Positions 1,571 through 39,565 of a DNA stretch of 64,000 nt are shown piece by piece. Numbering within the stretch: the stretch's first letter is position 1; each line of letters begins with the position of its first letter. A program made the position numbers and the translations under genes. The stretch covers positions 56,178 through 120,177 of the forward strand of contig JBFMCT010000005.1 in NCBI GenBank assembly GCA_040754375.1, written 5' to 3'. This stretch comes from Actinomycetota bacterium. GTDB taxonomy: Bacteria > Actinomycetota > Acidimicrobiia > Acidimicrobiales > AC-14. The notes under the pieces are model-generated. The model searched no databases and was not told where the DNA came from. It worked only from the letters and a program-made list of their open reading frames with translations.

Positions 1571-2001
1571 GCGCGGCGGCCCGCAGCACCAAGAGGCTGT
1601 GGCTGGCCGGCGCGGTGGTGGCCGTGGCCCTGGGGTTCCTGCTCGTGCAGGGACTGGGCAACGCCACGTTGTACTTCCGCACGGCCGACGAGGCCGTGGC
1701 CCAGCGCGACAGCCTGGGTGAGCGGCGCTTCCGCCTCCAGGGCACGGTGGTGGCCGGGAGCGTGGACACCCGGGGCAACCAGGTGCTGTTCGACGTGACG
1801 GCCAACGACGTGACGGTGCCCATCGTCCACCAGGGTGACCCGCCCGAGCTGTTCCAGCCGGGCATCCCCGTCGTGCTCGAAGGCCGCTTTCAAGGTGAGC
1901 ACTTCGCCAGCGACCGGATCCTGGTCAAGCACACCGAGACCTATGTGGCCGACAACCCGGCCCGGGTGACCTCCTCCTCGGTCCCCTTCCCCGACCGGTG
2001 A
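1567..2001 (+). CDS. ccmE: CcmE, periplasmic heme chaperone
   Basis: CcmE binds heme covalently and passes it to the CcmF/H synthetase. The protein has 144 aa, with an N-terminal TM anchor (about residues 10-30), an OB-fold beta domain, and the heme attachment motif KHTETY carrying His122 with Tyr126 four residues on. The covalent ligand is therefore His, as in Escherichia coli, and not the Cys seen in some archaeal and Gram-positive CcmE. The GTG start overlaps the ccmD stop and its own stop overlaps ccmF, so translation is probably coupled. Confidence 0.95.
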   Translation: MSAAARSTKRLWLAGAVVAVALGFLLVQGLGNATLYFRTADEAVAQRDSLGERRFRLQGTVVAGSVDTRGNQVLFDVTANDVTVPIVHQGDPPELFQPGIPVVLEGRFQGEHFASDRILVKHTETYVADNPARVTSSSVPFPDR

Positions 2002-4091
2002 GCGCCGTCGCCGGGGCGGGGGCCGTGGCCCTGGCCCTGGCCTCGTCGGTGCTGGGCATGGTGACGCTGGCCATCGGCCTGCGCCGCAACGACGCCCGCC
2101 TGCTGCGGGGGGCGCAGCGCTACGTGTGGATGGTGCTGGCCGGGGCCGTTCTGGCCACCTTGGCCATGCAGTACGCCCTGCTCACCCACGACTTCTCCCT
2201 GCAGTACGTGGCCGACAACGGCAGCCGGGCCACCCCGCTGCTCTACCAGGTCACCACCATGTGGTCGGCCCTCGAGGGTTCGATCCTGCTGTGGGGGTTG
2301 GTGCTGGCCGGTTACCTGGCGGTCATGGCCCACCGCTTCCGCGACCGGGCAGCCGACCCCATGGTGGCCTGGGCCACGCTGTTCGGCCTGGCCGTGGCCG
2401 TCTTCTTCTTCGCCCTCATGGCCGGCCCCGCCAACCCCTTCCAGGTGGTGGCCGGCGAGGTGCCCCTCGACGGCCCCGGTCCCAACCCCCTGTTGCAGAA
2501 CCACCCCCTGGTCGCCTTCCACCCGCCCATGCTCTACCTGGGTTACGTGGGTTTCACCGTGCCCTTCGCCTTGGCCCTGGCCGCCCTGGCCACGGGCCGC
2601 ATGGGTGAGGGCTGGCTGGTCGAGGCCCGGCGCTGGACGCTGTTCGCCTGGGGCTTTCTCACGGCCGGCATCATCCTGGGCGCGTGGTGGTCCTACGAGG
2701 TGCTGGGGTGGGGCGGCTACTGGGCGTGGGACCCGGTCGAGAACGCTTCCCTGCTCCCGTGGCTGACGGCCACCGCCTACCTGCACTCGGTGATGGTCCA
2801 GGAACGGCGGGGCATGTTGCGGGTCTGGAACCTGTCGTTGCTGGTGGCCACCTTCTCGCTCACGATCCTGGGCACGTTCCTCACCCGTTCGGGGGTCCTC
2901 GAGTCGGTCCACGCCTTCACCGAGTCACCCATCGGGCCGTGGATCCTGGCCTTCTTCGGGGTGGTCGTGGCCGTGTCGATCGGGCTCATCGGCTGGCGGG
3001 GCGACCGCCTGCGCTCGCCCGGGGCCATCGACTCGCCCATCTCCCGCGAGGGCGCCTTCTTGGCCAACAACCTCGGCTTCGCGGCGTTCACGTTCGTCGT
3101 GCTGCTGGGGACGGTCTTCCCGCTGCTGGCCGAGGCCGTCAACGGTGAACTGCTGTCGGTGGGCTCGCCTTACTTCAACCGCATGACCGCCCCCATAGGG
3201 CTCACCCTGCTGTTCCTGATGGCGGTGGCCCCCGTGCTCCCGTGGCGCAAGGCCTCGGGGGAGGTGCTGCACCACCGCCTGGTGGCGCCCGCGTGGACGG
3301 CGACGGCCGTCGTGGTCGTGTGCGTGGCCGCCGGGGTGAGGGGCCTGGGCCCCCTGGCCGCCTTCGGCCTGGGGACTTTCGCGGGCACGACGGCCGTGCG
3401 CCAGCTCGGTCTGGCCGTGCGGGCCGCCCGCCGCCAGGGGACGCGGCTGGGCCGGGCCTTCATCGGCCGCACCAACGGGGGCATGATCGTCCACCTGGGG
3501 GTGGTGGTCATAGGCATCGCCTTCGCGGCCAGCTCGTCCTACGGCGAGAGCCGCCAGTTCCGGCTGGCCCCCGGCCAGTCGGCCACGCTGTCGGGTTACA
3601 CCCTGACCTACCTGGGCCTGCAGACCGTCGAGCGGGCCAACCACACCAGCACCCAGGCCCGTGTCCAGATCGACGGGGGCAAGGTCTACGCCCCCAGCCT
3701 CAACCAGTACCCGTTCGCCACCCAGGCCATCGGTACCCCGTCGGTGCGCAATGGCCTGCGCGAGGACGTCTACCTCACCCTGGTGGCTGCCCCCGACGAC
3801 CCCGCGAGCCCGGCCGTGATCGGCGTGAGGGTGCAGCCCCTGGTCGTGTGGCTGTGGATCGGCGGGGGGATCATGGCCCTGGGCACCCTGCTGGCGGCCT
3901 GGCCCGCGGGCCGCCGCCGGCGCCTGGAGGTGGCCGAAGGCCCGACCGAGGTCGACCCCGAACCCGCCCTGGCGGCGGGCACGGTCGAGCCCGCGACGGC
4001 CACAGCCGGCCCAGCGGCCGGGGGCGAGCCCGAAGCCCAGCCGGGGGCCGAACCCGCGGGGCCGGGGCGGCCGGCGGCGGTGCCGCGGTGA
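1998..4091 (+). CDS. ccmF: CcmF, cytochrome c heme lyase subunit
   Basis: CcmF is a large polytopic protein (697 aa) that receives heme from CcmE and ligates it to apocytochrome c together with CcmH. The WWD motif WGGYWAWDPVEN is at about residue 237, with the conserved PLVAFHPPMLYLGYVG stretch near 170 and many TM helices. The last 60 residues are an Ala/Pro/Glu-rich tail not typical of the family core. The GTG start at 1998 overlaps the ccmE stop (GTGA), and the stop overlaps ccmH in the same way. Confidence 0.96.
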   Translation: MSAVAGAGAVALALASSVLGMVTLAIGLRRNDARLLRGAQRYVWMVLAGAVLATLAMQYALLTHDFSLQYVADNGSRATPLLYQVTTMWSALEGSILLWGLVLAGYLAVMAHRFRDRAADPMVAWATLFGLAVAVFFFALMAGPANPFQVVAGEVPLDGPGPNPLLQNHPLVAFHPPMLYLGYVGFTVPFALALAALATGRMGEGWLVEARRWTLFAWGFLTAGIILGAWWSYEVLGWGGYWAWDPVENASLLPWLTATAYLHSVMVQERRGMLRVWNLSLLVATFSLTILGTFLTRSGVLESVHAFTESPIGPWILAFFGVVVAVSIGLIGWRGDRLRSPGAIDSPISREGAFLANNLGFAAFTFVVLLGTVFPLLAEAVNGELLSVGSPYFNRMTAPIGLTLLFLMAVAPVLPWRKASGEVLHHRLVAPAWTATAVVVVCVAAGVRGLGPLAAFGLGTFAGTTAVRQLGLAVRAARRQGTRLGRAFIGRTNGGMIVHLGVVVIGIAFAASSSYGESRQFRLAPGQSATLSGYTLTYLGLQTVERANHTSTQARVQIDGGKVYAPSLNQYPFATQAIGTPSVRNGLREDVYLTLVAAPDDPASPAVIGVRVQPLVVWLWIGGGIMALGTLLAAWPAGRRRRLEVAEGPTEVDPEPALAAGTVEPATATAGPAAGGEPEAQPGAEPAGPGRPAAVPR

Positions 4092-5550: not shown

Positions 5551-5653
5551 GGCCCGGGGGGCCGCTCACCCTCGGTGGCGAGCGTGGCTACGCTGGCCGG
5601 TGCCCTGACGGGGAACCAGCCGGTGTGGCCCGGGCGGGGACCGAGAGGTGGTT

Positions 5654-7579
5654 ATGGAGCCTTCCGAGCAGTTGCGCCCCAGAGACCTGGCCATTCCCGC
5701 GGCCGTACCGCCCCCCCGGCCGCGCCACCTCGACGACCTCCGCTTCCGGCCCCAGCCCGCCACTCGGTGGTTCAGCCCGGGCGTGCTGGCCCAGTCGGGC
5801 CTGCGGGTGGCCCTGTCGGGGGCGTTCGGGCAGTTCCTCGACAAGCGCGAGCTCCAGGCGTCGGTGGAGGCCGGGCCCCTCTCGTTCGGGGTGGCGCCTA
5901 CCCCCGCGCCCCACTCCGCGGCCGCGAGCGACGAGCTCTGGGTCGACTTCATCGCCGACACGGGCGACGGGTTCGGCGCCACCTACACGGTGGCCTGGCT
6001 CTCGGCCCAGCACGAGCTGCGTTTCCCGGGGGTCGACCAGCCGTTGCCCCGGGCCGACGTGGTGGTGCTGGGCGGGGACGAGGTCTACCCGGTGGGCGAC
6101 GCCGAGACCTACGAGCAGCGCTTCGTGGGGCCGTTCCGGGCCGCCCTGCCGTGGACGTGGGAGCCCCACCCCGAGCTGTTCGCCCTGGCCGGCAACCACG
6201 ACTGGTACGACGGGCTGACGGCCTTCATGCGGATCTTCTGCCAGCGCAAGTGGGTAGGGGGCCGCCAGACCCGCCAGACCCGGAGCTACTTCGCTGTCGA
6301 GCTGCCCCACCGTTGGTGGCTTTGGGGCATCGACATCCAGCTCGACTCCTACATCGACGAACCTCAGCTCCGCTACTTCGAGGACGCCGTCAAGCGCATG
6401 CGCCCCGGCGACCGGGTGGTCCTGTGCACGGCCGAGCCCAGTTGGCTAGACGCCAGCCCCAGCTCGCGGGGGCGCAAGAACCTGGCCTTCCTGGAGAACC
6501 GGCTGATCCGCCCTAGCGGGGCCCGGCTGATGCTCACCCTCTCGGGCGACCTCCACCACTACTCGCACTATGTGGGCGAGGACGCCTCGCACAAGGTCAC
6601 GGCCGGCGGCGGCGGGGCCTTCCTGCACCCGACGCACACCCTGGCCCCCGAGATCGAGACCCAGATCGACCCGGCCGACGAGAAGACCCGGCGGCGCTTC
6701 ACCCGCACGGCCTGTTACCCCGACCAGGTGACCAGCCGGCGGCTGGCGTGGGGGGCGGTCTCGCTGCCGGTGCGCAACCCGTCGTTCATGGTGGTGCCGG
6801 CCGTCGTCTACGTGCTGCTGGCGTGGTCGAGCCAGTTCTCCCTGCGGGCCTTCGGCGGGCCGGGCGAGCCTGGTGAGATAAGCCGGGCGGCGCCGGGCTA
6901 CGGCTGGGTCGACGTGGTCTTGGGCCTCGTTCGCAACCCCCTCTCGATCCTGCTCGTCCTCGCCTTCGCGGGCGGGCTCATCGCCTTTGCCAAACCACCC
7001 AAGCGATGGCCCGACAACCCCCACCGGCTGGCCGCCAAGATCGTGATGGGCACCGTCCACCTGGCGCTGCATCTGGCCCTGGTGGTCGTGCTCGGCCTGC
7101 TGGCCGTCAAGGTGGCGTCGGCCCTGTTCGACCGGGGGGCGTGGTTCACGGCCACGCTGCTGGTGCTCATGGGCGCCTTCGGGGGCTTCTTCGGGGGGCT
7201 GGCCACGGGGCTCTACCTGGCCGTGGCCAACGCCGTGCCCGGCACCGACGCCCACTCCAACGAGGCCTTCTCGGCCATGCGCCTGACCAGCTACAAGAAC
7301 TTCCTGCGGCTTCACTTCGACGCCGCGGGCGTTCTCCACGTCTACCCCGTCGGGGTACGCCGAGCCCATAAGGACTGGGTGCTCGACCCCGACAACGCCG
7401 ACGCCGAGGCGCCCTGGCTGGCGCCCGACGGCGACCCCCCGGTCGCCCATCTCATCGAACGGCCGTTCTCGATCGACGGGCGAACGGGCGGGCCGGTGGT
7501 GCCTCCGCCCCGGGACGACGACCGCCAACCACAGGTCCTGCCGCTCAAGAAGCCAGGGTCGGGGAGTATGGAGACGTGA
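5654..7579 (+). CDS. Membrane-anchored calcineurin-type metallophosphoesterase (paralog 1)
   Basis: The N-terminal half (to about residue 340) carries metallophosphoesterase motifs: DTGDG near 102, GGDEVYP near 140, GNHDWYDG near 180 and SGDLHHYSHY near 297, followed by a Gly-rich TAGGGGAF loop. These supply the usual Asp, Asn and His metal ligands. The C-terminal half has about four TM helices between residues 370 and 540, then a soluble tail. ATG 5654 is preferred because GAGAGG sits 6 nt upstream; GTG 5648 is possible. The stop overlaps the next gene (GTGA). It is clearly paralogous to the gene at 10011, with matching motifs and the shared HRWWLWGIDIQ and DEPQLRYF blocks. Substrate unknown. 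Confidence 0.82.
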   Translation: MEPSEQLRPRDLAIPAAVPPPRPRHLDDLRFRPQPATRWFSPGVLAQSGLRVALSGAFGQFLDKRELQASVEAGPLSFGVAPTPAPHSAAASDELWVDFIADTGDGFGATYTVAWLSAQHELRFPGVDQPLPRADVVVLGGDEVYPVGDAETYEQRFVGPFRAALPWTWEPHPELFALAGNHDWYDGLTAFMRIFCQRKWVGGRQTRQTRSYFAVELPHRWWLWGIDIQLDSYIDEPQLRYFEDAVKRMRPGDRVVLCTAEPSWLDASPSSRGRKNLAFLENRLIRPSGARLMLTLSGDLHHYSHYVGEDASHKVTAGGGGAFLHPTHTLAPEIETQIDPADEKTRRRFTRTACYPDQVTSRRLAWGAVSLPVRNPSFMVVPAVVYVLLAWSSQFSLRAFGGPGEPGEISRAAPGYGWVDVVLGLVRNPLSILLVLAFAGGLIAFAKPPKRWPDNPHRLAAKIVMGTVHLALHLALVVVLGLLAVKVASALFDRGAWFTATLLVLMGAFGGFFGGLATGLYLAVANAVPGTDAHSNEAFSAMRLTSYKNFLRLHFDAAGVLHVYPVGVRRAHKDWVLDPDNADAEAPWLAPDGDPPVAHLIERPFSIDGRTGGPVVPPPRDDDRQPQVLPLKKPGSGSMET

Positions 7580-10008
7580 GCGACACCCACTTCGACACGA
7601 TCGTGGTCGGTTCCGGGTTCGGCGGGTCGGTGACCGCCTACCGGCTGGCCGAGGCCGGCCAGCGGGTCTGCCTTCTGGAGCGGGGCAAGTCCTACCCGCC
7701 CGAGTCATTCGCCCGCCGGCCCCATGAGATGGCCCGCAATTTCTGGGACCCGAGCCGGGGCTACCAGGGCCTGTTCGACGTGTGGAGCTTCCGGGGGATC
7801 GAGGCCCTGATCGCCAGCGGTCTCGGCGGCGGATCGCTGATCTACGCCAACGTTCTGCTGCGCAAGGACGAGCGCTGGTTCGTGCACGAGAGCCCGGTGG
7901 GCAAGGGCTACGAGAACTGGCCCATCAGCCGGGCCGACCTCGACCCCCACTACGACGCCGTGGAGTCGATGATGGGCGCCACCCGCTTCCCCTTCGGCCA
8001 GCCCGGGTTCGACACCCACAAGACCCAGGCCCTGAAGGACGCGGCCGCCACGTTGGACCTGGAGTGGGCGCTCCCACCCCTGGCCGTTAGCTTCTCGCCC
8101 CGGCCCGGCGAACCTCCCGTCATCGCCGAGCCCGTGGCCCCGGCCCCCTACGGCAACGTCCACGGCAAGCTGCGCACCACGTGCCGGCTGTGCGGCGAGT
8201 GCGACCTGGGCTGCAACTACGGCAGCAAGAACACCCTCGACCACAACTACATCTCCGCCGCCTGCCACCACGGGGCCGAGGTCCGCACCCGCTCGGAGGT
8301 CAAGCGCATCGGCCGCCGGCCCGAGGGCGGTTACACGGTCAGCTACGTCGAGCACCGGCCCGATCGCGAGGGTGTGGCCACCGACACGTCCAAGCTGCCC
8401 CAGACCACGATCACCGCCGACCGGCTCGTGCTGAGCGCCGGCACCCTGGGCAGCCCCTACCTGCTGCTTCGCAACCGCTCGGCCTTTCCCAACCTGTCCA
8501 AGGCGCTGGGCAGCCGCTTCTGCGGCAACGGTGACCTGCTGAGCTTCGTCATCAACGCCACCGAGGAGGACGGCGGCCGCCGGGTGCCGCGCAACATCGA
8601 AGGCAGCCGGGGGCCGGTCATCACCAGCTATCTGCGGGTGCCCGACCAGGTCGACGGCGGGACCGGTCGGGGCTACTACGTGGAAGACGCCGGCTACCCG
8701 GCGTGGCTCGACTGGGTGGTCGAGACCGCCACCCTGCCCCGGACGGTCTCGAGGGTGGTCCGCTTCGCCGGCCGCCGGGTACTCCACCACCTGACCCGTA
8801 GCCCCCGCAGCGACCTCAGCGCCGAGATCGGGTACCTGGTGGGCCCGTGCACCCTGTCGTCCACCTCGATGCCCCTACTGGGCATGGGCCGAGACGTGCC
8901 CGACGGGGTCATGAAGCTGCGCCGGGGGTACCTCGACATCGACTGGTCGACCAAGACCTCCCAGGACTACTTCGAGCGGGTCCGGGGCACCATGGAAGGC
9001 ATCGCCTCAGCTCTCGGTGCCGACTTCAAGGACAGCTTCTTGTGGTGGCTCAAGCGGGTCATCACCGTCCACCCCCTGGGCGGCTGCCCCATGGGCCGCC
9101 ACGAGGGCGAGGGCGTGGTCGACCAGTGGGGCGAGGTCTTCGGTTACCCCGGCCTGTACGTGGCCGACGGGTCGGTGATGCCCGGCCCCGTCGGGCCCAA
9201 CCCCTCGCTGACGATCGCCGCCTTCGCCGACCGCATGGCCACCCGCATCCTCGAGTCGGCCCCGCCCGCCCGCCGACCTGTCCACCCGCCCGTCCCGGTC
9301 CCGGTCCCCGAGCCGGAGCCGGCGCCTCCAGGCCCGGAGCCCGCCCCCGAGCCCGGCGACGGCGCGACCACCTCGTTGGAGTTCACCGAGGAGATGAAGG
9401 GCCACGTCACCTTCGGGGAGACCGACTTCGAAAAGGGCGCCAAGCAGGGCCGCAAGGACCGCAACTTCTTCATGTTCCGCCTGACGATCGTGCTTGATGA
9501 CGTGAACGCCTTCCTGGCCGACCCCGACCGCCAGGCCCGGGCCGGGGGCTGGGTGTCGTGCGAGGCCCTGGGCGGCCGGCGGCCCGTAGACCGGGGCACC
9601 TTCAACCTGTTCGTCGACACCGAGGACCCCGACCTGAAGAAGATGCTCTACCGGCTGTGGTTCACCGACGGCAGCGGCCACCCCCTCACGATGACGGGGT
9701 TCAAGCTGGTCAAGGACGACCCCGGCTTCGACCTGTGGTCGGACACGACGACGCTCTACGTCCGGCTGCTGGCCGGCCACGTCGAGCCCGACGGCGACGG
9801 GGCCGCCGAGGTCGTGGCGTCGGGCATCATCACCATCTACCTGAAGGACTTCGCCCGCCAGCTCACCACCTTCCGCACCCGGGGCGGCAGCCTGTCCGAC
9901 CGAGCCACCGCCCTGGCCCGCTTCGGCAAGCTGTTCCTGGGCGATCTGTGGGACGTGTACGGCGGGCGGGCCAGCGATAGCGCCGGCGACAGTGACGTGA
10001 GGGCCTAG
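7576..10008 (+). CDS. GMC-family flavin oxidoreductase, cholesterol-oxidase-like, with C-terminal extra domain
   Basis: This 810-residue protein begins with the FAD Rossmann motif VVGSGFGGSVTAYRL. The GMC active site is near residue 498 (VHPLGGCPMG, catalytic His) and 540 (GPNPSLTIAAFADRMA, Asn). A cysteine cluster C203-x2-C206-x2-C209-x3-C213, followed by NYGSKNTLDHNYI, is a feature of a GMC subgroup and resembles a ferredoxin spacing. After the oxidase domain (to about 570) comes a Pro/Glu linker and a 210-residue C-terminal domain that I cannot name. There is no signal peptide. Likely substrates are sterols or long-chain alcohols, which is an inference. The start overlaps the preceding phosphoesterase and a second one follows directly. 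Confidence 0.88.
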   Translation: MSDTHFDTIVVGSGFGGSVTAYRLAEAGQRVCLLERGKSYPPESFARRPHEMARNFWDPSRGYQGLFDVWSFRGIEALIASGLGGGSLIYANVLLRKDERWFVHESPVGKGYENWPISRADLDPHYDAVESMMGATRFPFGQPGFDTHKTQALKDAAATLDLEWALPPLAVSFSPRPGEPPVIAEPVAPAPYGNVHGKLRTTCRLCGECDLGCNYGSKNTLDHNYISAACHHGAEVRTRSEVKRIGRRPEGGYTVSYVEHRPDREGVATDTSKLPQTTITADRLVLSAGTLGSPYLLLRNRSAFPNLSKALGSRFCGNGDLLSFVINATEEDGGRRVPRNIEGSRGPVITSYLRVPDQVDGGTGRGYYVEDAGYPAWLDWVVETATLPRTVSRVVRFAGRRVLHHLTRSPRSDLSAEIGYLVGPCTLSSTSMPLLGMGRDVPDGVMKLRRGYLDIDWSTKTSQDYFERVRGTMEGIASALGADFKDSFLWWLKRVITVHPLGGCPMGRHEGEGVVDQWGEVFGYPGLYVADGSVMPGPVGPNPSLTIAAFADRMATRILESAPPARRPVHPPVPVPVPEPEPAPPGPEPAPEPGDGATTSLEFTEEMKGHVTFGETDFEKGAKQGRKDRNFFMFRLTIVLDDVNAFLADPDRQARAGGWVSCEALGGRRPVDRGTFNLFVDTEDPDLKKMLYRLWFTDGSGHPLTMTGFKLVKDDPGFDLWSDTTTLYVRLLAGHVEPDGDGAAEVVASGIITIYLKDFARQLTTFRTRGGSLSDRATALARFGKLFLGDLWDVYGGRASDSAGDSDVRA

Positions 10009-10010
10009 CC

Positions 10011-11828
10011 ATGTCCGAAGGTCCCCCGCCCCGCCCGCAGTCGATGGCGGACACCGAGATCGGCTTCGTGCCCCAGCCGATGGTGTGCTGGCTCTCGCCC
10101 AAGGGCCTGGCCACCACCGGGATGCAGGTGCTGCTGTCGGGGATCTTCGGCTCGTACTCCGACAAGCGCGAGCTACAGGCTGCCCTCCAGCGCTGCGACG
10201 CCTTCGACCACTCCGAGGGTGAGGAGATCTGGATCGACTACATCTCCGACCTGGGCGACGGCTTCGAGCCCACCTATCACATGGCCCACCTGCTGGCCCA
10301 GGAAGAGCTGGCGGTCGAGAGGGCCGACGGCGGCGACGAGGGGGAGGTCCGCCTGCCGGCGGGCGAGATCCTGGTCATGGGGGGCGACCAGGTCTACCCC
10401 ACGGCGTCCAAGGTCGAGTACGAGAACCGGCTGATCGGGCCCTACCGGGCGGCGCTGCCGTGGAGCTACCGCGGGCGCCACCTCTATGCCATCCCCGGCA
10501 ACCACGACTGGTACGACGGGCTGACCTCGTTCATCCGGGTGTTCTGCCAGAACGACTGGATCGGCGGATGGAAGACCGAGCAGCCCCGCAGCTACTTCGC
10601 CCTGCAGCTGCCGCACCGGTGGTGGCTGTGGGGCATCGACATCCAGTTCGACAACTACATCGACGAGCCCCAGCTCCGTTACTTCAGCGACATCGTGGGG
10701 TCTCGGCTCCAGCCCGGCGACTCGATAATCCTCTGTTCGGCCAAGCCGAGCTGGGTCAAATGCCAGCTTGACCAGCCGGAGGCCTTCGTCAACCTCGACT
10801 ACTTCGCACGCAAGGTGATCAGCCGGCGCGGCGCCGAGGTGCGGCTCTACCTGACGGGCGACACCCACCACTACGCCCACTACGAGCCGGTGGACCACGA
10901 CGGCCCTCACTTCTTCACCGCCGGCGGCGGCGGGGCCTACCTGTCGGCCACCCACCACCTGCCTGACGAGCTCGAGCTGCCGCCGCCCGCGTCGCGCGAC
11001 CCGGGCAAGACGGCCCCCTCGTCCCGGTTCCGGCTCAAGGCTGCCTTTCCGGAGAAGAAGGCTTCCAGCCGGATGCGCAAGGGCGTGCTCGACCTCCCCA
11101 TCCAGAACGTCAGCTTCTGGGCGCTGGTCGCGGCCCTGCACATCACCTTCGGCTGGCTGGTGGCCTCCACCCTGCGGGGCGGCGGGATCAGCATCGCCGA
11201 CCGGCTCCAGGCCCTGTCGCTGCACGGCCTGGCTGACGTGTTGTTCCGCAGCACCCTGGGTGTCGGGGCGCTGATCCTCCTGGTCATAGGGCTGACCACC
11301 TTCACCCAGAAGGAATCCCCCCTGAAACGGTGGCTGCTGGGCGGGGCGCACGCCCTCGTCCAGTTCGCGGTGATCGTGGCCACCATGAGGGTGGCGTCGC
11401 TCCTGCTCGCCGACCTGGAGGGCGTGGCCTTCTGGGTGCCGTTCTTCGCCTTCATCGGCGTCATCGGCGGCTTCGTCGGCAGCCTGCTGACCGGCTTCTA
11501 CCTCTACGTGGCCGACGGCTTCGGCTGCAACAGCAACGAGCTGTTCGCGGCCCAGCGCATCGTCGACTACAAGAACTTCCTGCGCCTGCGGGTCTCGGCC
11601 GAGGGCGTTACGGTCCACCCTGTCGGGGTCGACAAGACATGCCGGTCGTGGGCCGTGAAGACCGACGGCGAACGCCACCAGCCCTGGTTCGAGCCAGACG
11701 GCCCTTACCACCCGCCCCGGCTCATCGAGGAACCCGTACTCGTCCGGCCGGCGACGCCCCCCGGCACACCCCCGTCCCCGCCCCCGTCCCCGTCGGCTTC
11801 CTCGTCACAGGAGGCTTCGCACCCATGA
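10011..11828 (+). CDS. Membrane-anchored calcineurin-type metallophosphoesterase (paralog 2)
   Basis: This is the second copy of the phosphoesterase at 5654: 605 aa with LGDG near residue 78, GGDQVYP near 124, GNHDWYDG near 163, and TGDTHHYAHY with TAGGGGAYLSATHH near 282-305. About four TM helices follow (for example FWALVAALHITFGWLVAS and WVPFFAFIGVIGGFVGSLL), then a soluble region shared with paralog 1 (DYKNFLRLR, VHPVGVDK) and a Pro/Ser-rich end. The start lies 2 bp after the GMC stop and the stop overlaps the hydrolase start (ATGA). Keeping both copies with intact metal motifs suggests non-redundant roles; substrate unknown. Confidence 0.82.
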   Translation: MSEGPPPRPQSMADTEIGFVPQPMVCWLSPKGLATTGMQVLLSGIFGSYSDKRELQAALQRCDAFDHSEGEEIWIDYISDLGDGFEPTYHMAHLLAQEELAVERADGGDEGEVRLPAGEILVMGGDQVYPTASKVEYENRLIGPYRAALPWSYRGRHLYAIPGNHDWYDGLTSFIRVFCQNDWIGGWKTEQPRSYFALQLPHRWWLWGIDIQFDNYIDEPQLRYFSDIVGSRLQPGDSIILCSAKPSWVKCQLDQPEAFVNLDYFARKVISRRGAEVRLYLTGDTHHYAHYEPVDHDGPHFFTAGGGGAYLSATHHLPDELELPPPASRDPGKTAPSSRFRLKAAFPEKKASSRMRKGVLDLPIQNVSFWALVAALHITFGWLVASTLRGGGISIADRLQALSLHGLADVLFRSTLGVGALILLVIGLTTFTQKESPLKRWLLGGAHALVQFAVIVATMRVASLLLADLEGVAFWVPFFAFIGVIGGFVGSLLTGFYLYVADGFGCNSNELFAAQRIVDYKNFLRLRVSAEGVTVHPVGVDKTCRSWAVKTDGERHQPWFEPDGPYHPPRLIEEPVLVRPATPPGTPPSPPPSPSASSSQEASHP

Positions 11829-12874
11829 CCGACTCTTCGACCACAAGGGGCACGTCCCGCCCGCTGCGGCTGGGCGACCCCGAGGTCCACGCCGTCCGCA
11901 CACCTGACAACGTCGAGCTGAGGCTCACCCGCCACAAGGGTGGGCCCAAGGGCCCGGTGATCCTGGCCCCCGGGTATGGGACCTCGACGCTGGCCCTGGC
12001 CACCCCCACGGTGGAGACCAACTTTCCCGAGTACCTCTACGAGCGGGGCTACGACGTGTGGCTGTTCGACTACCGGGCCAGCCCGGTGCTGCCCTCGGCC
12101 GCCACCCAGTACTCGGCCGACGAGATCGCCACCCACGACTGGCCCACGGCCGTGAAGGCGGTGATCGACGCCTCGGGGGCGGGCTCGGTGCAGGTCGGGG
12201 CCCACTGCATCGGCTCGATGACCCTCAACATGGCCCTGGCCGCGGGGATGAAGGGGGTGCGGTCGGCCATCAGCTCCCAGGTGGCCCTCCACCCCAAGGT
12301 GGTGCCCATGGTGCGGGCCAAGGCCGTGCTGCGACTGGCCACCCTGCTCAAGCTGGTGGGGGCCAAGACCCTGAGCAGCAACTACTCAGGGTCTGCGGGC
12401 CACCGGGCCATGGACCTGGCCATGCACCTGTGGCCCACCCACGAGCGCTGCGACAGCCCCGTGTGCCGGCGCATCCTCTTCCTCTACGGCGAGGTCTTCC
12501 GCCACGACTACCTCAACGACGAGACCCACGCCACCGTGCCCGAGATGTTCGGCATCGCCAACCTCACGTTCTTCGAGCACGTGAGCCGCATCTGCGCCGC
12601 CGGCCGGGTGGTCGACGCCCAGGGCGAGGACACCTACCTGTCCCACGTGGACAACATGGACCTGCCCATCACCTGGGTCCACGGGGAGCGCAACAACTTC
12701 TTCCCGCCCGTGGGCACCAAGATGACCTACGACCTGCTGAGCAAGGTAAACGGCCCCGACCTCTACCGGCGGGTCGTCGTGCCCGGCTACGCCCACATGG
12801 ACTTCTTCATCGGCCGCGACGCCCACCGCGACATCTTCCCCCTCCTCCACGAAGACATGGAGCGGTTCAACTGA
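11825..12874 (+). CDS. Alpha/beta hydrolase with Cys nucleophile elbow
   Basis: This is a 349-residue alpha/beta hydrolase. The oxyanion-side segment VILAPGYGTST and the elbow VGAHCIGSMT are clear. The nucleophile position (residue 128) is Cys, not Ser, in a GxCxG arrangement. A late Asp/Glu region (ITWVHGERNNFFPP) and His (PGYAHMDFF) complete a plausible triad. I recall related hydrolase domains fused to GMC oxidases in bifunctional actinobacterial proteins; here the two activities are separate genes of one operon. ATG 11825 overlaps the preceding stop. The last 8 bp overlap the 3' end of the convergent VTC gene. Confidence 0.85.
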   Translation: MTDSSTTRGTSRPLRLGDPEVHAVRTPDNVELRLTRHKGGPKGPVILAPGYGTSTLALATPTVETNFPEYLYERGYDVWLFDYRASPVLPSAATQYSADEIATHDWPTAVKAVIDASGAGSVQVGAHCIGSMTLNMALAAGMKGVRSAISSQVALHPKVVPMVRAKAVLRLATLLKLVGAKTLSSNYSGSAGHRAMDLAMHLWPTHERCDSPVCRRILFLYGEVFRHDYLNDETHATVPEMFGIANLTFFEHVSRICAAGRVVDAQGEDTYLSHVDNMDLPITWVHGERNNFFPPVGTKMTYDLLSKVNGPDLYRRVVVPGYAHMDFFIGRDAHRDIFPLLHEDMERFN

Positions 12875-13640
12875 GGACGTGAACGGTGCGGGCCCAGCGG
12901 TTGGCCGGCAGCGACGGGAACAGGGCGGCGAGCCCGGTCGCGTACTTGCTGATCGCCACCGGCCGGCGACCCATCGCCCACAGCACCCGGTCGGCGGGGG
13001 ATCGGCCCAGCGCCGACTTGGTTTCGACGACGACGGCGCCGGGGGCGGCCACTGACTCGCCACCGGGCGACCGGCACGTCAGGCCGGAGTCGATCGTGAG
13101 CCGGTAGCCGGCGTCGAGGTCCACGAGCGTCGCCCGCTGGTAGGTGGTCACCAGGGTCGGTCCCAGGGCGGCTGCCAACCCGGCCCCCACCGCGTGCTCG
13201 GACAGGAACGCCAAAGCCGCCGGCCCGAGCCGGTCCTTCTCCGCCGCCGGGTGTGGGGTGCGGTGCTTCACGGTTTCGCCCCTCCCGCCCGCCAACTTCA
13301 CTTCGAGCACGCACGACCCGCTGTCGAGGTATGTCCGGGCTCGCACCTTGAACCGCCGGCGCCGGCCATGGGCCGCTCCCCGGTACGAGGCCAGGTCGGG
13401 GGTGTCGAAGTAGACCGACTCGTAGGAGAACGACCGCCGGCCGTCGATCTCGAGGGCGGCGACACCGCTGGGCAGGGCCGCCACCAGTTCCGCGACCTCG
13501 CCAGCGCATAGGACGTACTTGCGGTCGGTGCGGTCGAGCAACGGGGCCCCGGCCAGCACCTGGTCGAGCGTCACCGGACCGAGGGCGGCGGTGGCGGCCA
13601 GTACGGGCCCGGTGGCCGGTCCCGCAACGCTCGGGTTCAC
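12867..13640 (-). CDS. VTC-domain (polyphosphate-polymerase-like) protein
   Basis: The 257-residue protein has a VTC/triphosphate-tunnel fold. Supporting motifs are TDRKYVL (basic residue near the start), SFSYESVYFDTPDL, RRRRFKVRARTYLDSGSCVLEVKL with alternating charged residues in beta strands, and VVVETKSAL plus SKYATG near the end. VTC domains in yeast polymerise polyphosphate from ATP; bacterial members of this cluster type are not functionally settled. The GTG start overlaps the stop of the DUF4956 gene by 4 bp, so the two are co-translated, and a CotH gene diverges from them. Confidence 0.85.
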   Translation of the reverse strand: MNPSVAGPATGPVLAATAALGPVTLDQVLAGAPLLDRTDRKYVLCAGEVAELVAALPSGVAALEIDGRRSFSYESVYFDTPDLASYRGAAHGRRRRFKVRARTYLDSGSCVLEVKLAGGRGETVKHRTPHPAAEKDRLGPAALAFLSEHAVGAGLAAALGPTLVTTYQRATLVDLDAGYRLTIDSGLTCRSPGGESVAAPGAVVVETKSALGRSPADRVLWAMGRRPVAISKYATGLAALFPSLPANRWARTVHVLS

Positions 13641-14305
13641 AACGACCGGGCCTGGTGGTGCGCAGGGGGGCCGTCGAGAGTGTCGAGGTTGTGCCGGCGG
13701 TCACGCCCGTGGAGGGAGCGCCCGGCCCGGGCCCCGCCGGCTGGGCTCTTCGTCCCGGTTGGCGCACGGAAGCGCACGTCTACCACGGTCAGGTCGCGAA
13801 CCAGGTCGACGTGGGTCACGACCGCCCTCCGGACGGGCGCCCCGACCATGGCCTCGATCACGGCGACGACCTGGGCCTCGTCGGTGTAGGCCGAGTCGAG
13901 GGTCATCGTCTGGCGGCGCCACCGCTCGAGCACGCGAGGGTGGTCGGCGATGGTCACCGTCGCGACGACGAGGGTGATCAGGGCCGGGGCGACCCAACGG
14001 GGCTGGGGCCCGAAGCCGGCCACCAGGCCCATCGTGAGCGAGGCGAAGTAGTAGGCGACCTCCTCGTGGGCGATCTCCGACGACCGCAGGCGGATCAGCG
14101 ACAGCACCCCGAACAGCCCGAGCCCGAGCCCGAGCCCGAACCCGACCTCGGCGGTGGCGAGCACCCCGGTGACGGCCACCACCCCGACGTTGAGGCCGAC
14201 GAAGGCCAGAGGCATGTCCGGTCGCCGGTGGCGCCGGAAGTAGACCCCGTAGGCCAGCACGGTGATGGCCACCAGGTCGAAGGCGATGATGAGCGGGTCG
14301 AGCAT
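13637..14305 (-). CDS. DUF4956 membrane protein
   Basis: The 222-residue protein has four or five N-terminal TM helices (FDLVAITVLAYGVYF, MPLAFVGLNVGVVAVTGVLA, FGLGLGLGLFGVLSLIRLRS) and the DUF4956 block EIAHEEVAYYFASLTMGL. A soluble C-terminal domain follows. The chosen ATG at 14305 sits 9 nt after a perfect GAGGAGGT Shine-Dalgarno, which decides it over the upstream GTG at 14332. DUF4956, VTC and CotH genes commonly occur together in bacteria, pointing to one envelope-related function that is still undefined. The Arg-rich end may be disordered. Confidence 0.85.
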   Translation of the reverse strand: MLDPLIIAFDLVAITVLAYGVYFRRHRRPDMPLAFVGLNVGVVAVTGVLATAEVGFGLGLGLGLFGVLSLIRLRSSEIAHEEVAYYFASLTMGLVAGFGPQPRWVAPALITLVVATVTIADHPRVLERWRRQTMTLDSAYTDEAQVVAVIEAMVGAPVRRAVVTHVDLVRDLTVVDVRFRAPTGTKSPAGGARAGRSLHGRDRRHNLDTLDGPPAHHQARSL

Positions 14306-14457
14306 CGTCGGCTTACCTCCTCGGTCGGGCACTTTCTAGGTGGCGGTCCTCGGAGTTCCCTATGAACGGGCCGGGAAGTTGCCGCTGACGGGGGTCTCAT
14401 GGCCAGTTCCCAGGCTGCTGCGATGGGCCTCCGAGGGCGGCGCGGTGGGATCTGACC

Positions 14458-15909
14458 ATGACCAGCCCTCTGTTCCCTGGTGCACGACCTGGTGGGCTTC
14501 CCGCTCCTGCCCGCTTGCGGTGGCCCGCCTGGATCGCCGTCCCCACGCTGGCGGTGACCCTGGCCGGGGCGTGTAGCCCGGTGAAGGTCAGCCCGGCGTC
14601 GTCACCAGGAGTGGTGGCCGACCGGGCGGTCGTCGCCACCGGCGACCTTTTCGACGCGTCGACGGTGCGGGACATCGACGTCGTGTTCGACGCCGGCGAC
14701 TACGGGGCCATGGTCGAGGCCTACTCGGCCACCGGCGACAAGAAGTGGGTCGAGGCCACCGTGACCATCGACGGCGTCACCTTCGAGCGAGCCGGCATGC
14801 GTCTCAAGGGCAACTCGTCGCTGCGGGGCCTCACCCGGGCGGGCCGGGCGGCTGCCGGGGAGGAGGCTGGGACCGCAGGACCGGCTGAACCGAGCACGCT
14901 GCCTTGGCTCATCCGACTCGACCGCAATGTCGCCGGCCAGAACTACGGGGGCATCAGCGAACTGGTCGTGAGGGCCAACGGCAGCCGGACGTCGCTCAAC
15001 GAGGCCGTGGCCCTCGAACTGATCGGGTTGGCGGGGGTGCCAACCCAGCGGGCGGTGGCGGCCCGCTTTAGCGTGAACGGCTCTGGCGAAGTGCTGCGCC
15101 TGGTGGTCGAGCACCCCGACGACACGTGGCGGGACGCGTCGTTCGGCGGCGACGGCGTCCTCTACAAGGCCGAGAGCACCGGCGACTACAGCTACCGGGG
15201 CACCGACCCGGCGGCCTACGAGAACGTGTTCGACCAGGAGACGGGCAGCGAGGACGACCTCGGGCCGCTGATCGCGTTCTTGGACTTCGTCAACAACAGC
15301 TCGGACGCAGCGTTCGCCTCCGAGCTCGACCGCCACCTCGACGTGGCCGGGTTCGCCCGCTACCTGGCCGTGCAGGAACTGGTCGCCAACTGGGACGACA
15401 TCGACGGGCCGGGCAACAATTCCTATCTCCACTACGACCCTGCTACCGGGCGTATGTCGGTCGTCTCGTGGGACCTCAACCTCGCCTTCGGCGTGTCCCC
15501 GGGCGGCGGGGGCGGCGGGGCTGGCCCCGGCGCGGCGGGCCCCGGCGGGGGCGGGGCCGGTCCTGGCGGGGAACCTGGCATCGGTCTTGGCCCTGGCCCG
15601 GGAGCCGGTGGTCCCGGTGGACGCGGGCCGGCCGGCCCTGGCGCCGGGGCGCCGGGGGGTCGCGGGGGCGGGCCGGGCGGGCGTTCGAACGTGCTGGTGC
15701 AGCGGTTCATGGCCACCTCCCCGTTCCTGGCCCTTTACCAGCAGGCGGTGGCCGAACTGAGGGCCGAGCTCTACGGCGACGGCACCGCCTCGGCGGTGCT
15801 GGACAGGTGGGTATCGGTTCTGTCCTCAGGTGCTGGCGACCTGGTGACGGCCGAGGTCGTGACCGCCGAGGCGGCGGCGATCTCCGCCTACTTCCGCCCC
15901 ACGGTCTGA
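14458..15909 (+). CDS. CotH-kinase family lipoprotein
   Basis: CotH proteins are atypical protein kinases first known from Bacillus spore coat. This 483-residue protein starts with a signal peptide ending in a lipobox-like LAGAC (Cys39). The CotH core follows: DIDVVFDAGDYGAMV, MRLKGNSSLRG, LPWLIRLDRN, YGGISELVVRANGSR, VLYKAESTGDYSYRG, QELVANWDDIDGPGNNSYLH and the metal-binding SWDLNLAFG. Immediately after SWDLNLAFG there is a Gly/Pro/Ala insert of about 65 residues before NVLVQRFMA. It lies divergently next to VTC and DUF4956, its usual partners. Surface location is inferred from the lipobox. Confidence 0.88.
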   Translation: MTSPLFPGARPGGLPAPARLRWPAWIAVPTLAVTLAGACSPVKVSPASSPGVVADRAVVATGDLFDASTVRDIDVVFDAGDYGAMVEAYSATGDKKWVEATVTIDGVTFERAGMRLKGNSSLRGLTRAGRAAAGEEAGTAGPAEPSTLPWLIRLDRNVAGQNYGGISELVVRANGSRTSLNEAVALELIGLAGVPTQRAVAARFSVNGSGEVLRLVVEHPDDTWRDASFGGDGVLYKAESTGDYSYRGTDPAAYENVFDQETGSEDDLGPLIAFLDFVNNSSDAAFASELDRHLDVAGFARYLAVQELVANWDDIDGPGNNSYLHYDPATGRMSVVSWDLNLAFGVSPGGGGGGAGPGAAGPGGGGAGPGGEPGIGLGPGPGAGGPGGRGPAGPGAGAPGGRGGGPGGRSNVLVQRFMATSPFLALYQQAVAELRAELYGDGTASAVLDRWVSVLSSGAGDLVTAEVVTAEAAAISAYFRPTV

Positions 15910-21717: not shown

Positions 21718-23154
21718 TCACCCGCCCGCGGCCAGTGCGCGGAGGGCGGACAGGCTCGGCCTGAACAGGTACTCCCCACCCTTGATGACGCTGAACATGG
21801 GCTGGGGGGTGAGGATGAACGGGGGCGAACCCTGCACGGTCATCTTGTTGGTGGAGGTGCCGTCGCCGATCAGGAAGTCCTTGTCGGCCCCTGTGTGCAG
21901 GCCGTCACCGTCGTCCACCCACAGGGCCTGGATGGTCTCGAAGCCCCGGGCGATGCTGGCCTGGAAGCAGCGGAAGATGAGGCCCCGCTCGACGCCGTCG
22001 TCCTCGGTGACGCCGGCCGGCAGGGGCGGGCCGTAGGGCCGGCCCCGGCGGATGATGCGGTGGCGGTTGGAGAGCTTGCCGCCGAACATGCCGTCGTGGT
22101 CGCGGGGGTTGGTGCGCCGGATGTGGGCGCCCAAGGGGCATTTCACGCCCTCGGGGTCGTCCTCGTAGAGGAAGTCGTTGACCCGCTCGGGGTCGTTGGC
22201 GATGGCCGGGTCGGGCCGGTCGGGGGACAGGCTCAGCGGCGTGCCGTCGGGCCAGCGCCCGACGACCTTGGCGGCCAGCATCTCCGCCCCGCCCGGGTAG
22301 TGCCGGGCGGCCTCGGCGAAGTAGCGGCGGAACCCGGCCACGTCCATATGCATCTTGCGGTAGACCTCGAACGTGGCGTTGCGGTCGAAGGGCGGGGCCG
22401 GCGCCTCGGGCAGCCCCCCGTCCTCGTCCTCGTAGCCGAGCACGAACTCGCCGGCGCGGATCGAACGCCAACCCCCACCGGGGACGGGCAGGCCGTCTCC
22501 CGGGCGGGCGGCCAGCCCCGACCCCCTGATCGCCGGGCGGGCAATGCCGTCGGCGAACCCGAAGTGGTCGTGCCCGCCGGCCAGCAGGTCGGCCCGCTGG
22601 TCGTGGACCACCACCACCGCCCCGCCGGTGGCGTCGATGCCGGCGTGGAGCCAGGCGCACCGTTCGTCGAGGGTCTCGTTGTCGACGGCGTGGATATCGA
22701 CCTTGACGTGGGCCTCGCCCGTGCCCAGCCCTTCGTCCCAGTTCCCGGGGGCGCTGGGGCCGCGGTCACCGAGCCACTGGTGGCGGGCCGCCATACCCTG
22801 GCGGAACTCCTCCGGGAAACTGTCCAGCACCCCCTGGTCGACCCCGAGGGCGGCCAGCCCCGTCCATGTGAACGAGATGTTGAGGGTGGTGGCGGGGACC
22901 TCCCGCCACGGTTCGGCGGTCGTCACATGTTCGAGCAGGCTGCCCAGCCATCGGCGAGCCCCGGCCGCGTCGGCCACCCGTACGAACACGTAGGCCGCGT
23001 CGGTGTGGCTGTAGCCGTTGATCACGTTGCCCTGGATGTCGGCGACCTCGAGTTCGGGCGCCCCGACGTGGGCCCGGTGGGGCAGGTGGGACCGGGCCAG
23101 GCCCGGGGGGTTGGCGGGCGAACCGGCTACGCCCCGGGGCTCGTAGCCGTTCAC
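21718..23154 (-). CDS. DyP-type heme peroxidase
   Basis: The 478-residue protein carries the DyP signature FGFADGIARP (GFADG at 199-203, catalytic Asp), the proximal heme His344 in CPLGAHIRRTNPR, and the distal Arg region HRIIRRGRPYG. The C-terminal GLIFRCFQASIARGFETIQ is also conserved. No Tat or Sec signal is visible, so it should be cytoplasmic or packaged. Encapsulin is not seen nearby. It is the last gene of an operon with an amidase and two small paralogous proteins, and its start overlaps the upstream stop (ATGA). Confidence 0.93.
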   Translation of the reverse strand: MNGYEPRGVAGSPANPPGLARSHLPHRAHVGAPELEVADIQGNVINGYSHTDAAYVFVRVADAAGARRWLGSLLEHVTTAEPWREVPATTLNISFTWTGLAALGVDQGVLDSFPEEFRQGMAARHQWLGDRGPSAPGNWDEGLGTGEAHVKVDIHAVDNETLDERCAWLHAGIDATGGAVVVVHDQRADLLAGGHDHFGFADGIARPAIRGSGLAARPGDGLPVPGGGWRSIRAGEFVLGYEDEDGGLPEAPAPPFDRNATFEVYRKMHMDVAGFRRYFAEAARHYPGGAEMLAAKVVGRWPDGTPLSLSPDRPDPAIANDPERVNDFLYEDDPEGVKCPLGAHIRRTNPRDHDGMFGGKLSNRHRIIRRGRPYGPPLPAGVTEDDGVERGLIFRCFQASIARGFETIQALWVDDGDGLHTGADKDFLIGDGTSTNKMTVQGSPPFILTPQPMFSVIKGGEYLFRPSLSALRALAAGG

Positions 23155-23762
23155 CGCCGCTCGCCCCGGTGGCCGAACTCGGCCAGGAACTCGCGGTGGA
23201 GGGTGGCCGTGTCCATGCCCTGGGCCCGGGCCGCGAACTCGGCTACCCGGGTGCGGGCCTCCAGCCCCTGGCGCACGTCACGCACGGTGGCGTCGGGGTA
23301 GTGGCCCAGGAAGTAGTGGTTGTCCACCTGGTTGTGGCGCACCCAGCCCCGGAACGCCCTGGCGTCGTCGGTGCCGGGGTAGCCCACGCAGTGGCGCCAC
23401 AGGGCGTCGGCTTCGGTCGCCATCTCGGCCACCACGTCGTCGAGGAACTCGTCGAGCCCGCCGTCGAAGCTGGCCGTGAATACCAGGTAAGACGACTGGA
23501 GGGGCTCGGGCACCTGGGGATCGCCCTGGTAGACGAGCTCGTCGAGCACGTGCACCCGCGAGCAGTGGAGCTGGCGAAGGCGGGCCAGGGGGCTCTGGCC
23601 GCCGTCGCCCCACCCCGCCAGCTCGGCGGCCACCGCCTCGGCCTGGCCGGGCGCGATGGCGGCGAACATCGTGAGCCCGTAGGCCTGGCCCGACACGTTG
23701 CCGTCGGCGTGGCGCGCCGCCCGCCGCAGTGCCCCCACTGCCCGGGCCAGCGAGAGGCTCAT
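23151..23762 (-). CDS. DyP-operon small protein A (uncharacterised)
   Basis: The 203-residue protein has no family I can name. Blocks such as YLVFTASFDGGLDEFLDDVV, then HCVGYPGTDDARAFRGWVRH, then NHYFLGHYPDATVRDVRQGL match the neighbouring 205-residue protein closely, so the two are paralogs. The FTASFDG...DEFLDDV pattern suggests a ferredoxin-like beta-alpha-beta fold. ATG 23762 overlaps the upstream stop and the gene's stop overlaps the DyP start, so all three are translationally coupled. A role with the peroxidase is inferred from this coupling only. Confidence 0.7.
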   Translation of the reverse strand: MSLSLARAVGALRRAARHADGNVSGQAYGLTMFAAIAPGQAEAVAAELAGWGDGGQSPLARLRQLHCSRVHVLDELVYQGDPQVPEPLQSSYLVFTASFDGGLDEFLDDVVAEMATEADALWRHCVGYPGTDDARAFRGWVRHNQVDNHYFLGHYPDATVRDVRQGLEARTRVAEFAARAQGMDTATLHREFLAEFGHRGERR

Positions 23763-38852: not shown

Positions 38853-39488
38853 TCAGTTGGTGCGATCGAGGTAGCCGTTGTCGACCAGCCACAGCACGCT
38901 CAGCGGCGCCGGGGCCCCGGGCAGGAGGCTGGCGTCGAGCTGGTACTGCAGGCCGAGGCCCATCTGCTCGAACCACGGGGCGATGGGCCCGAGGCGTACC
39001 GGCAACCGCTTGGCCACCCGGTAGGTGTGGTAGTTGCACGGGTAGGCCGGGTCGAACGTGTTCAGGCTCTGCGGCGGGATGGCCCGCTGCTGGTAGCGGG
39101 TCAACCGGGGTGCCAGGAACGACCCGAACTCGCTGCCGAACCGGTCGACCTGGGTGCCGACCGGGAGCGAGCCCGCGACCATCACCGCCCGGTAATAGCC
39201 GTCGTCGGGCGGGAAGATGTAGCTCCCGCGGCCGTCGTTGGCCGCCGCGTCCCAATAACGATGGAGGAACTCGGCCGACGACAGGTCGCCGAAGCGCCGC
39301 CAGTTGCTGACCATGATGGCCACCGGCCCGGTCGTCGGCAGGTCGGACGGGCCGAGGCGCGGGTCGCCGTCGAGGGGGATGCTGCAGGCGACGACCGCCG
39401 CCGCCGTGCCCGCGGCGGCCGGCACGGGGACCGTGGCCAGGCAGAGGACCGCGCCCAGGACCGCTAGTGAATGCCGCAACCGCCTCAT
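38853..39488 (-). CDS. Sec-exported TNT-domain NAD+ glycohydrolase toxin
   Basis: The 211-residue protein has a Sec signal peptide (to about residue 34) and a C-terminal TNT domain as in Mycobacterium tuberculosis CpnT: LPVGTQVDRFGSEFGSFLAP, then RAIPPQSLNTF, then YHTYRVAKRLPVRLGPIAPW, FEQMGLGLQYQL and a final LVDNGYL. Candidate active-site residues by family comparison are Arg116, His154 and Gln181. TNT cleaves NAD+ and kills cells lacking the immunity factor. Here the toxin has only a signal peptide and about 60 extra residues, with no ESX or polymorphic-toxin trafficking domains. GGAGGG lies 8 nt before ATG 39488. Confidence 0.82.
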   Translation of the reverse strand: MRRLRHSLAVLGAVLCLATVPVPAAAGTAAAVVACSIPLDGDPRLGPSDLPTTGPVAIMVSNWRRFGDLSSAEFLHRYWDAAANDGRGSYIFPPDDGYYRAVMVAGSLPVGTQVDRFGSEFGSFLAPRLTRYQQRAIPPQSLNTFDPAYPCNYHTYRVAKRLPVRLGPIAPWFEQMGLGLQYQLDASLLPGAPAPLSVLWLVDNGYLDRTN

Positions 39489-39565
39489 GGGGGCCGCCCT
39501 CCGTGCCGTGCCGGGGACCGCCCCCTGGCGCTGGTCAGCCTATGCGGGCAGGCAGGCCCGCGCCG

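Follow-up and report, generated by a model that had tools for sequence, protein, structure and literature searches.

A cluster of four genes was found on the plus strand (positions 5654–12874) of a 64,000 bp stretch of contig JBFMCT010000005.1 from an Actinomycetota bacterium of the order Acidimicrobiales (assembly GCA_040754375.1); this whole stretch is referred to below as the window. The genes encode, in this order, a membrane metallophosphoesterase (MPE1), a GMC oxidase carrying an additional C-terminal domain (CTD), a second membrane metallophosphoesterase (MPE2) and an alpha/beta hydrolase (ABH). The gene set is recurrent and modular, and the MPE is an optional member of it that also occurs alone in many Actinomycetota. 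The operon-like packing of the genes, together with the finding that members of their families are neighbours or fusion partners in several phyla, argues for joint work of the products. It is tentatively proposed that the four genes function as one cytoplasm-facing, membrane-attached module, which removes phosphate and acyl groups from a lipid and oxidizes the freed alcohol. The features of the cluster are as follows (ORF, open reading frame; PAP, purple acid phosphatase):

5654–7579, + strand: MPE1, membrane metallophosphoesterase, PAP-like, tree branch A (ORF, Pfam, tree, hydropathy)
7576–10008, + strand: GMC-CTD protein, whole gene (810 aa, GTG start)
7576–9255, + strand: GMC oxidase domain, residues 1–560 of the GMC-CTD protein (Pfam GMC_oxred_N/C; nearest PDB structure is cholesterol oxidase)
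9256–9369, + strand: proline-rich linker separating the GMC domain and the CTD (sequence)
9370–9984, + strand: CTD, a nine-strand barrel-like module, also present in patatins, ABHs and one MPE
10011–11828, + strand: MPE2, membrane metallophosphoesterase, PAP-like, tree branch B (605 aa; ORF, Pfam, model, tree)
11109–11519, + strand: four long predicted helices of MPE2, residues 367–503, inside the PAP-like fold (model, alignment range, hydropathy)
11825–12874, + strand: ABH, acid-lipase-like, with a Cys nucleophile, codon 128 at 12206–12208 (349 aa; ORF, Pfam, profile comparison)

The initial annotation, made from the sequence alone, described a packed four-gene operon with junctions of 4, 2 and 4 bp, and both the coordinates and the printed junctions agree with it: MPE1 and the GMC gene overlap by 4 bp (GTGA), a 2 bp gap separates the GMC gene from MPE2, and MPE2 overlaps ABH by 4 bp (ATGA). 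The GC content at third codon positions is of the coding type (0.93–0.96) in all four frames. MPE1 is 641 aa long when counted from the ATG at 5654, and an alternative GTG start is located at 5648. 

The GMC protein was attributed to the GMC superfamily using Pfam (GMC_oxred_N, 43.9 bits with a cut-off of 23; GMC_oxred_C, 67.5 bits with a cut-off of 24.6). The His of the HPLGG motif and the Asn of the GPNP motif, which we take to form the active site, are kept in 40 of the 41 GMC domains compared, the remaining one being gapped at these positions. The nearest PDB structures are GMC-type cholesterol oxidases (4u2l, 1b4v), which have the fold and both active-site motifs in common with the GMC domain; the score against the cholesterol oxidase equivalog NF058674 was 203.7 bits with a cut-off of 850 bits. 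In contrast to cholesterol oxidase, the window protein has the FAD motif at its very start and no signal peptide that could be recognized by eye, bears the CTD and is encoded next to MPE and ABH genes. The two-domain build, with the CTD (residues ~599–803, about 200 residues) behind the proline-rich linker, was absent from the initial annotation. A search of Pfam and NCBIfam with the CTD gave no match, and none in PDB was significant. Its fusion partners, as assigned by Pfam, were found to be GMC domains, patatins, ABHs and one MPE (P0191). Complete GMC-CTD-ABH chains are present in several phyla; such proteins of 1,120–1,169 aa, labelled "alpha/beta fold hydrolase" or "GMC oxidoreductase", contain in one chain the same parts that the window encodes as separate GMC-CTD and ABH genes, accompanied there by two MPE genes. 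The C-terminal extension of patatin-like phospholipases is the same module as well, and the patatin proteins P0124, P0125, P0129 and P0134 carry two CTD copies.

The gene packing, family assignments, fusions, recurrent linkage and conserved catalytic residues were observed directly; the chemistry and substrate, the order of the reactions, the side of the membrane and the assembly of a complex are inferred, and the proposed module would work as follows. MPE1 and MPE2, held at the cytoplasmic side of the membrane by four helices within the PAP-like fold, would cleave the phosphate ester of a membrane lipid alcohol. Then, ABH (and likewise patatin where it is present) would cleave or transfer an acyl ester via a Cys-His pair, and the FAD-dependent GMC domain would convert the freed hydroxyl into a carbonyl, using O2 or some other acceptor. 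Since the CTD is fused to all four enzyme types, it could be their common docking or lipid-holding part.

The linkage of these families was surveyed in two sets of genomes that partly overlap, and few candidates were scored in each (up to 16 and 6 for Acidimicrobiia, 3 and 8 for Actinomycetota), so that all absences are to be read as lower bounds on presence. Among 198 Acidimicrobiia genomes, the CTD was found in nine and an MPE in four. In all four MPE genomes, the window genome included, an MPE directly adjoins a CTD-bearing gene: GMC-CTD is followed by MPE, with ABH on the opposite strand, in G117; CTD by MPE in G138; and G196 has the order GMC, patatin-CTD, MPE. Ten CTD places were recorded in this survey; in nine of them the CTD is fused to GMC, ABH or patatin, three being full GMC-CTD-ABH chains, and the tenth adjoins an MPE. 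The 396 Actinomycetota genomes included nine with an MPE and 18 with a CTD; six had both, and in five of these the genes were linked. With the window genome excluded, the MPE and the CTD co-occurred in 3/3 MPE genomes of Acidimicrobiia (P = 4.5e-5) and in 5/8 of Actinomycetota (P = 4.1e-6), P values which treat the genomes as independent, though they are not.

Thus, the linkage extends beyond this genome; its restriction to this genome, or recent duplication of the two MPE genes, would have refuted the reading according to the initial annotation, and neither was observed. MPE genes adjoin CTD genes in Acidimicrobiia, other Actinomycetota, Pseudomonadota and Bacteroidota. On a plasmid of Azospirillum oryzae, an MPE gene lies immediately before a gene of 1,143 aa that comprises GMC-CTD-ABH, and a plasmid of Arthrobacter StoSoilB13 contains GMC-CTD, an MPE in two overlapping frames, ABH and patatin. 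The split of the latter MPE (L132:9986-11981) is a frameshift or a sequence error. Of 545 confirmed MPE loci, the best 80 make up the named set (some on contigs that end inside the flank), and seven of these have partners within the flanks, namely those of Cesiribacter, Adhaeribacter and Bacteroidetes SW_9_63_38 (Bacteroidota), two Pseudomonadota metagenome-assembled genomes (MAGs), Frankia and Acidimicrobiia nzgw83. GMC-CTD-ABH chains with no MPE in the fetched stretch were found on plasmids of Rhizobium, Persicobacter, Bernardetia, Variovorax and Leptospira.

Both phosphoesterases narrowly pass the gathering cut-off of the Pfam Metallophos family (PF00149; 21.6 bits for MPE1 and 24.0 bits for MPE2 with a cut-off of 21.5). 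Hydropathy analysis revealed four peaks in MPE1 (residues 379–513) and five in MPE2, two of them overlapping. The initial annotation had placed the four transmembrane segments in C-terminal halves; this arrangement was not borne out by the MPE2 model, in which the long helices (residues 367–503) are internal and interrupt a PAP-like fold. The MPE2 model aligns with purple acid phosphatases over residues ~70 to ~582, and an MPE is thereby assigned to the PAP fold. Because this range extends past the helices, the C-terminal beta segment of MPE2 appears to complete the interrupted phosphatase fold, a reading based on a predicted model and on the ends of the alignment range rather than on residue-level comparison. 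The inserted helices distinguish the MPEs from purple acid phosphatases (PDB 7ov2, 5uq6) and from GAP50 (PDB 3tgh).

MPE1 and MPE2 are 43% identical overall (catalytic part, 51%; transmembrane part, 34%; C-terminal part, 44%) and thus do not stem from a recent duplication. The same follows from the phylogenetic tree of 97 MPEs, in which they fall into separate branches and which was built by a quick method, rooted at the midpoint and flagged for long branches; pieces spanning <380 residues (L132 in two frames, L143, L157, L163, L172) were left out. Three clustered MPEs, of L089, L165 and L167, join MPE1 (support 99); the clustered MPEs of G138, G206, G117 and Frankia join MPE2, together with 67 solo actinobacterial MPEs (support 97). 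Thus, the two window MPEs come from different old branches, and each of these branches has GMC- or CTD-linked members elsewhere.

ABH was assigned to the Pfam family Abhydrolase_1 (32.5 bits with a cut-off of 25.8). The nearest solved relatives of the ABH profile are gastric lipase (PDB 1hlg, E = 9.9e-15) and lysosomal acid lipase/cholesteryl ester hydrolase (PDB 6v7n, E = 1.7e-11), followed by polyhydroxyalkanoate (PHA) synthase (E = 2.5e-6). In contrast to the Ser nucleophile of acid lipases, a Cys (HCxG) was found in all 37 ABHs, and the acid position is occupied by Asn in 35 of the 37. The sterol connection suggested by the initial annotation is therefore no more than a resemblance: cholesterol oxidase and acid lipases are the nearest relatives of the GMC domain and of ABH, and the low equivalog score and the exchange of Ser for Cys set the window proteins apart from them.

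The Cys nucleophile is also consistent with a biosynthetic role, in which ABH would be an acyltransferase and the genes would serve to synthesize a lipid (an ester, a polyester or a ketone) instead of breaking one down. Such a role seems unlikely to us. It would fit the rank of PHA synthase as the next PDB relative and the position of a GMC-CTD-ABH gene of Rhizobium leguminosarum near phaC, phaE and CoA-transferase genes. In addition, among 41 compared cluster loci, two additional families were each encountered in five, namely an acetoacetate-decarboxylase (ADC) family match (PF06314) and a family resembling anthrone oxygenase (PF08592, 25.4 bits, below the cut-off of 27.3), both typed on the Cesiribacter copies only. 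However, acid lipases outscore PHA synthases by far (E = 1e-14), the PHA synthase model TIGR01838 gave 11.1 bits for ABH and 18.8 bits for P0133 with a cut-off of 622.65, and the window cluster contains no ADC, anthrone-oxygenase-like or patatin gene. The Cesiribacter cluster reads ABH, ADC, anthrone-oxygenase-like, DUF4345, patatin, MPE and GMC-CTD, and the typed families of Adhaeribacter follow the same order. ADC-family and anthrone-oxygenase-like genes were observed beside ABH and patatin in several clusters (L047:4285-5749, L068, L149). These recurrent neighbours hint at a longer pathway.

A number of results weigh against the proposed lipid-processing module. The strongest of them, as regards a dedicated system, are that 73 of the 80 named MPE loci are solo (all Actinomycetota by title except one Acidobacteria MAG) and that a CTD (E ≤ 1e-5) was missing from 37 of the 49 named genomes bearing an MPE in a check that was given 50 of the 80 loci, all seven clustered ones among them. 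Hence, the MPE does not need the other parts. Of the lipid pathway proposed in the initial annotation, a lipid-directed gene set is supported by the linkage or fusion of the families in several phyla, and these MPE counts speak against a dedicated role of the MPE. In the Actinomycetota survey, three of the nine MPE genomes gave no CTD match and G290 carries the MPE and the CTD on different contigs; many CTD genes also have no MPE nearby. The order MPE-GMC-MPE, described for the window in the initial annotation, was found in none of the other 134 annotated loci, the window being the only place with an MPE on both sides of a GMC gene. In the window genome, the patatin-CTD query matched only the CTD stretch of the GMC protein, so that no patatin of the CTD-bearing type was found there, and the ADC query, run without a positive control, gave no match. 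The solo loci and the MPE genomes lacking a CTD would also agree with the MPE being a general membrane phosphatase, repeatedly placed beside GMC-CTD-ABH genes by chance or convenience and sharing no pathway with them, and so would the changes between solo and clustered states on the MPE tree: up to seven for the 17 clustered MPEs among 97, compared with 16 in shuffles, the starred branches forcing only three. We consider this improbable in view of the adjacency in all four MPE genomes of the Acidimicrobiia survey, the existence of an MPE-CTD fusion, and the occurrence in both old MPE branches of clustered members that belong to different families.

The metal site of the MPEs and the CTD supply further points of this kind. 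Purple acid phosphatases bind their metals with seven ligands in five motifs, which we assume to mark the ligand positions in the MPEs as well. None of the 97 MPEs has the motif IV His (MPE2 positions 239–251), and the first His of the GHxH motif is replaced by Asp284 (GDxH) in 88 of the 97. Because two canonical ligands are replaced, catalysis by the MPEs is not assured. The MPEs might instead be non-enzymatic PAP-fold anchors that hold the GMC-CTD protein and ABH at the membrane, by analogy with GAP50, which anchors a complex in Plasmodium. GAP50 was the top Foldseek match of the MPE (E = 2.6e-7), and P0191 joins an MPE to a CTD. A third MPE of the genome (contig C58, L008:6415-8184, minus strand), solo between genes whose translations were read by eye as ftsY and ffh, has additionally lost N164 and D284. 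We regard such a purely anchoring role as quite unlikely. Ser replaces N164 and Gly replaces D284 in the third MPE, and it may therefore be altered or inactive. As for the CTD, no solved relative was found, and thus its role in the lipid-processing module was guessed from its distribution.

No description of the MPE, GMC-CTD and ABH gene combination was found in the open-access literature, to which most subscription journals do not belong; the passages available from PMC12542777, PMC13066512, PMC8526041 and PMC9040561 do not treat this gene set. More guardedly than the module itself, we suggest an undescribed multi-phylum lipid-processing system, in which a barrel-like module would be the common connector of oxidase, Cys-lipase, patatin and phosphatase units, arranged as interchangeable assembly lines. 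These lines would be tethered by the phosphatase, with a membrane anchor of four helices that interrupts its own catalytic fold. If so, proteins annotated as "hypothetical", "metallophosphoesterase", "cholesterol oxidase" and "alpha/beta hydrolase" would become parts of one system, linked through a domain of about 200 residues that Pfam and NCBIfam do not match, and a soluble phosphatase fold would have become an integral membrane protein through an internal helix insertion. Organisms from the surveys, e.g., those with the Azospirillum oryzae plasmid pair or the Bacteroidota clusters, could serve for testing.

In the host genome (3.5 Mb, 105 contigs, 97% complete), the sole CTD proved to be the C-terminus of the window GMC protein. 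The genome encodes, at other places, one more GMC and one more ABH, which is more distant. The latter (L010:8309-9604, minus strand) is of the Cys type, adjoins an SDR-like gene and shows alignment likeness to the ABHs next to GMC-CTD in L154 and L148. A comparison of the four cluster proteins and P0176 with the PADLOC anti-phage defence profiles revealed no families at E ≤ 0.01.

Upstream of the cluster, the window contains cytochrome c assembly genes, including CcmF at 1998–4091. Directly downstream, VTC-domain and DUF4956 genes on the opposite strand and then a CotH-kinase gene on the plus strand are grouped at 12867–15909; the VTC gene is convergent with ABH and overlaps its end by 8 bp. 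Further along the window, the minus strand encodes a protein with a DyP-type peroxidase N-terminal domain (PF21105) at 21721–23277 and a protein whose C-terminal part is a TNT domain (Pfam Tuberculosis necrotizing toxin family, E = 6e-31) at 38856–39539.
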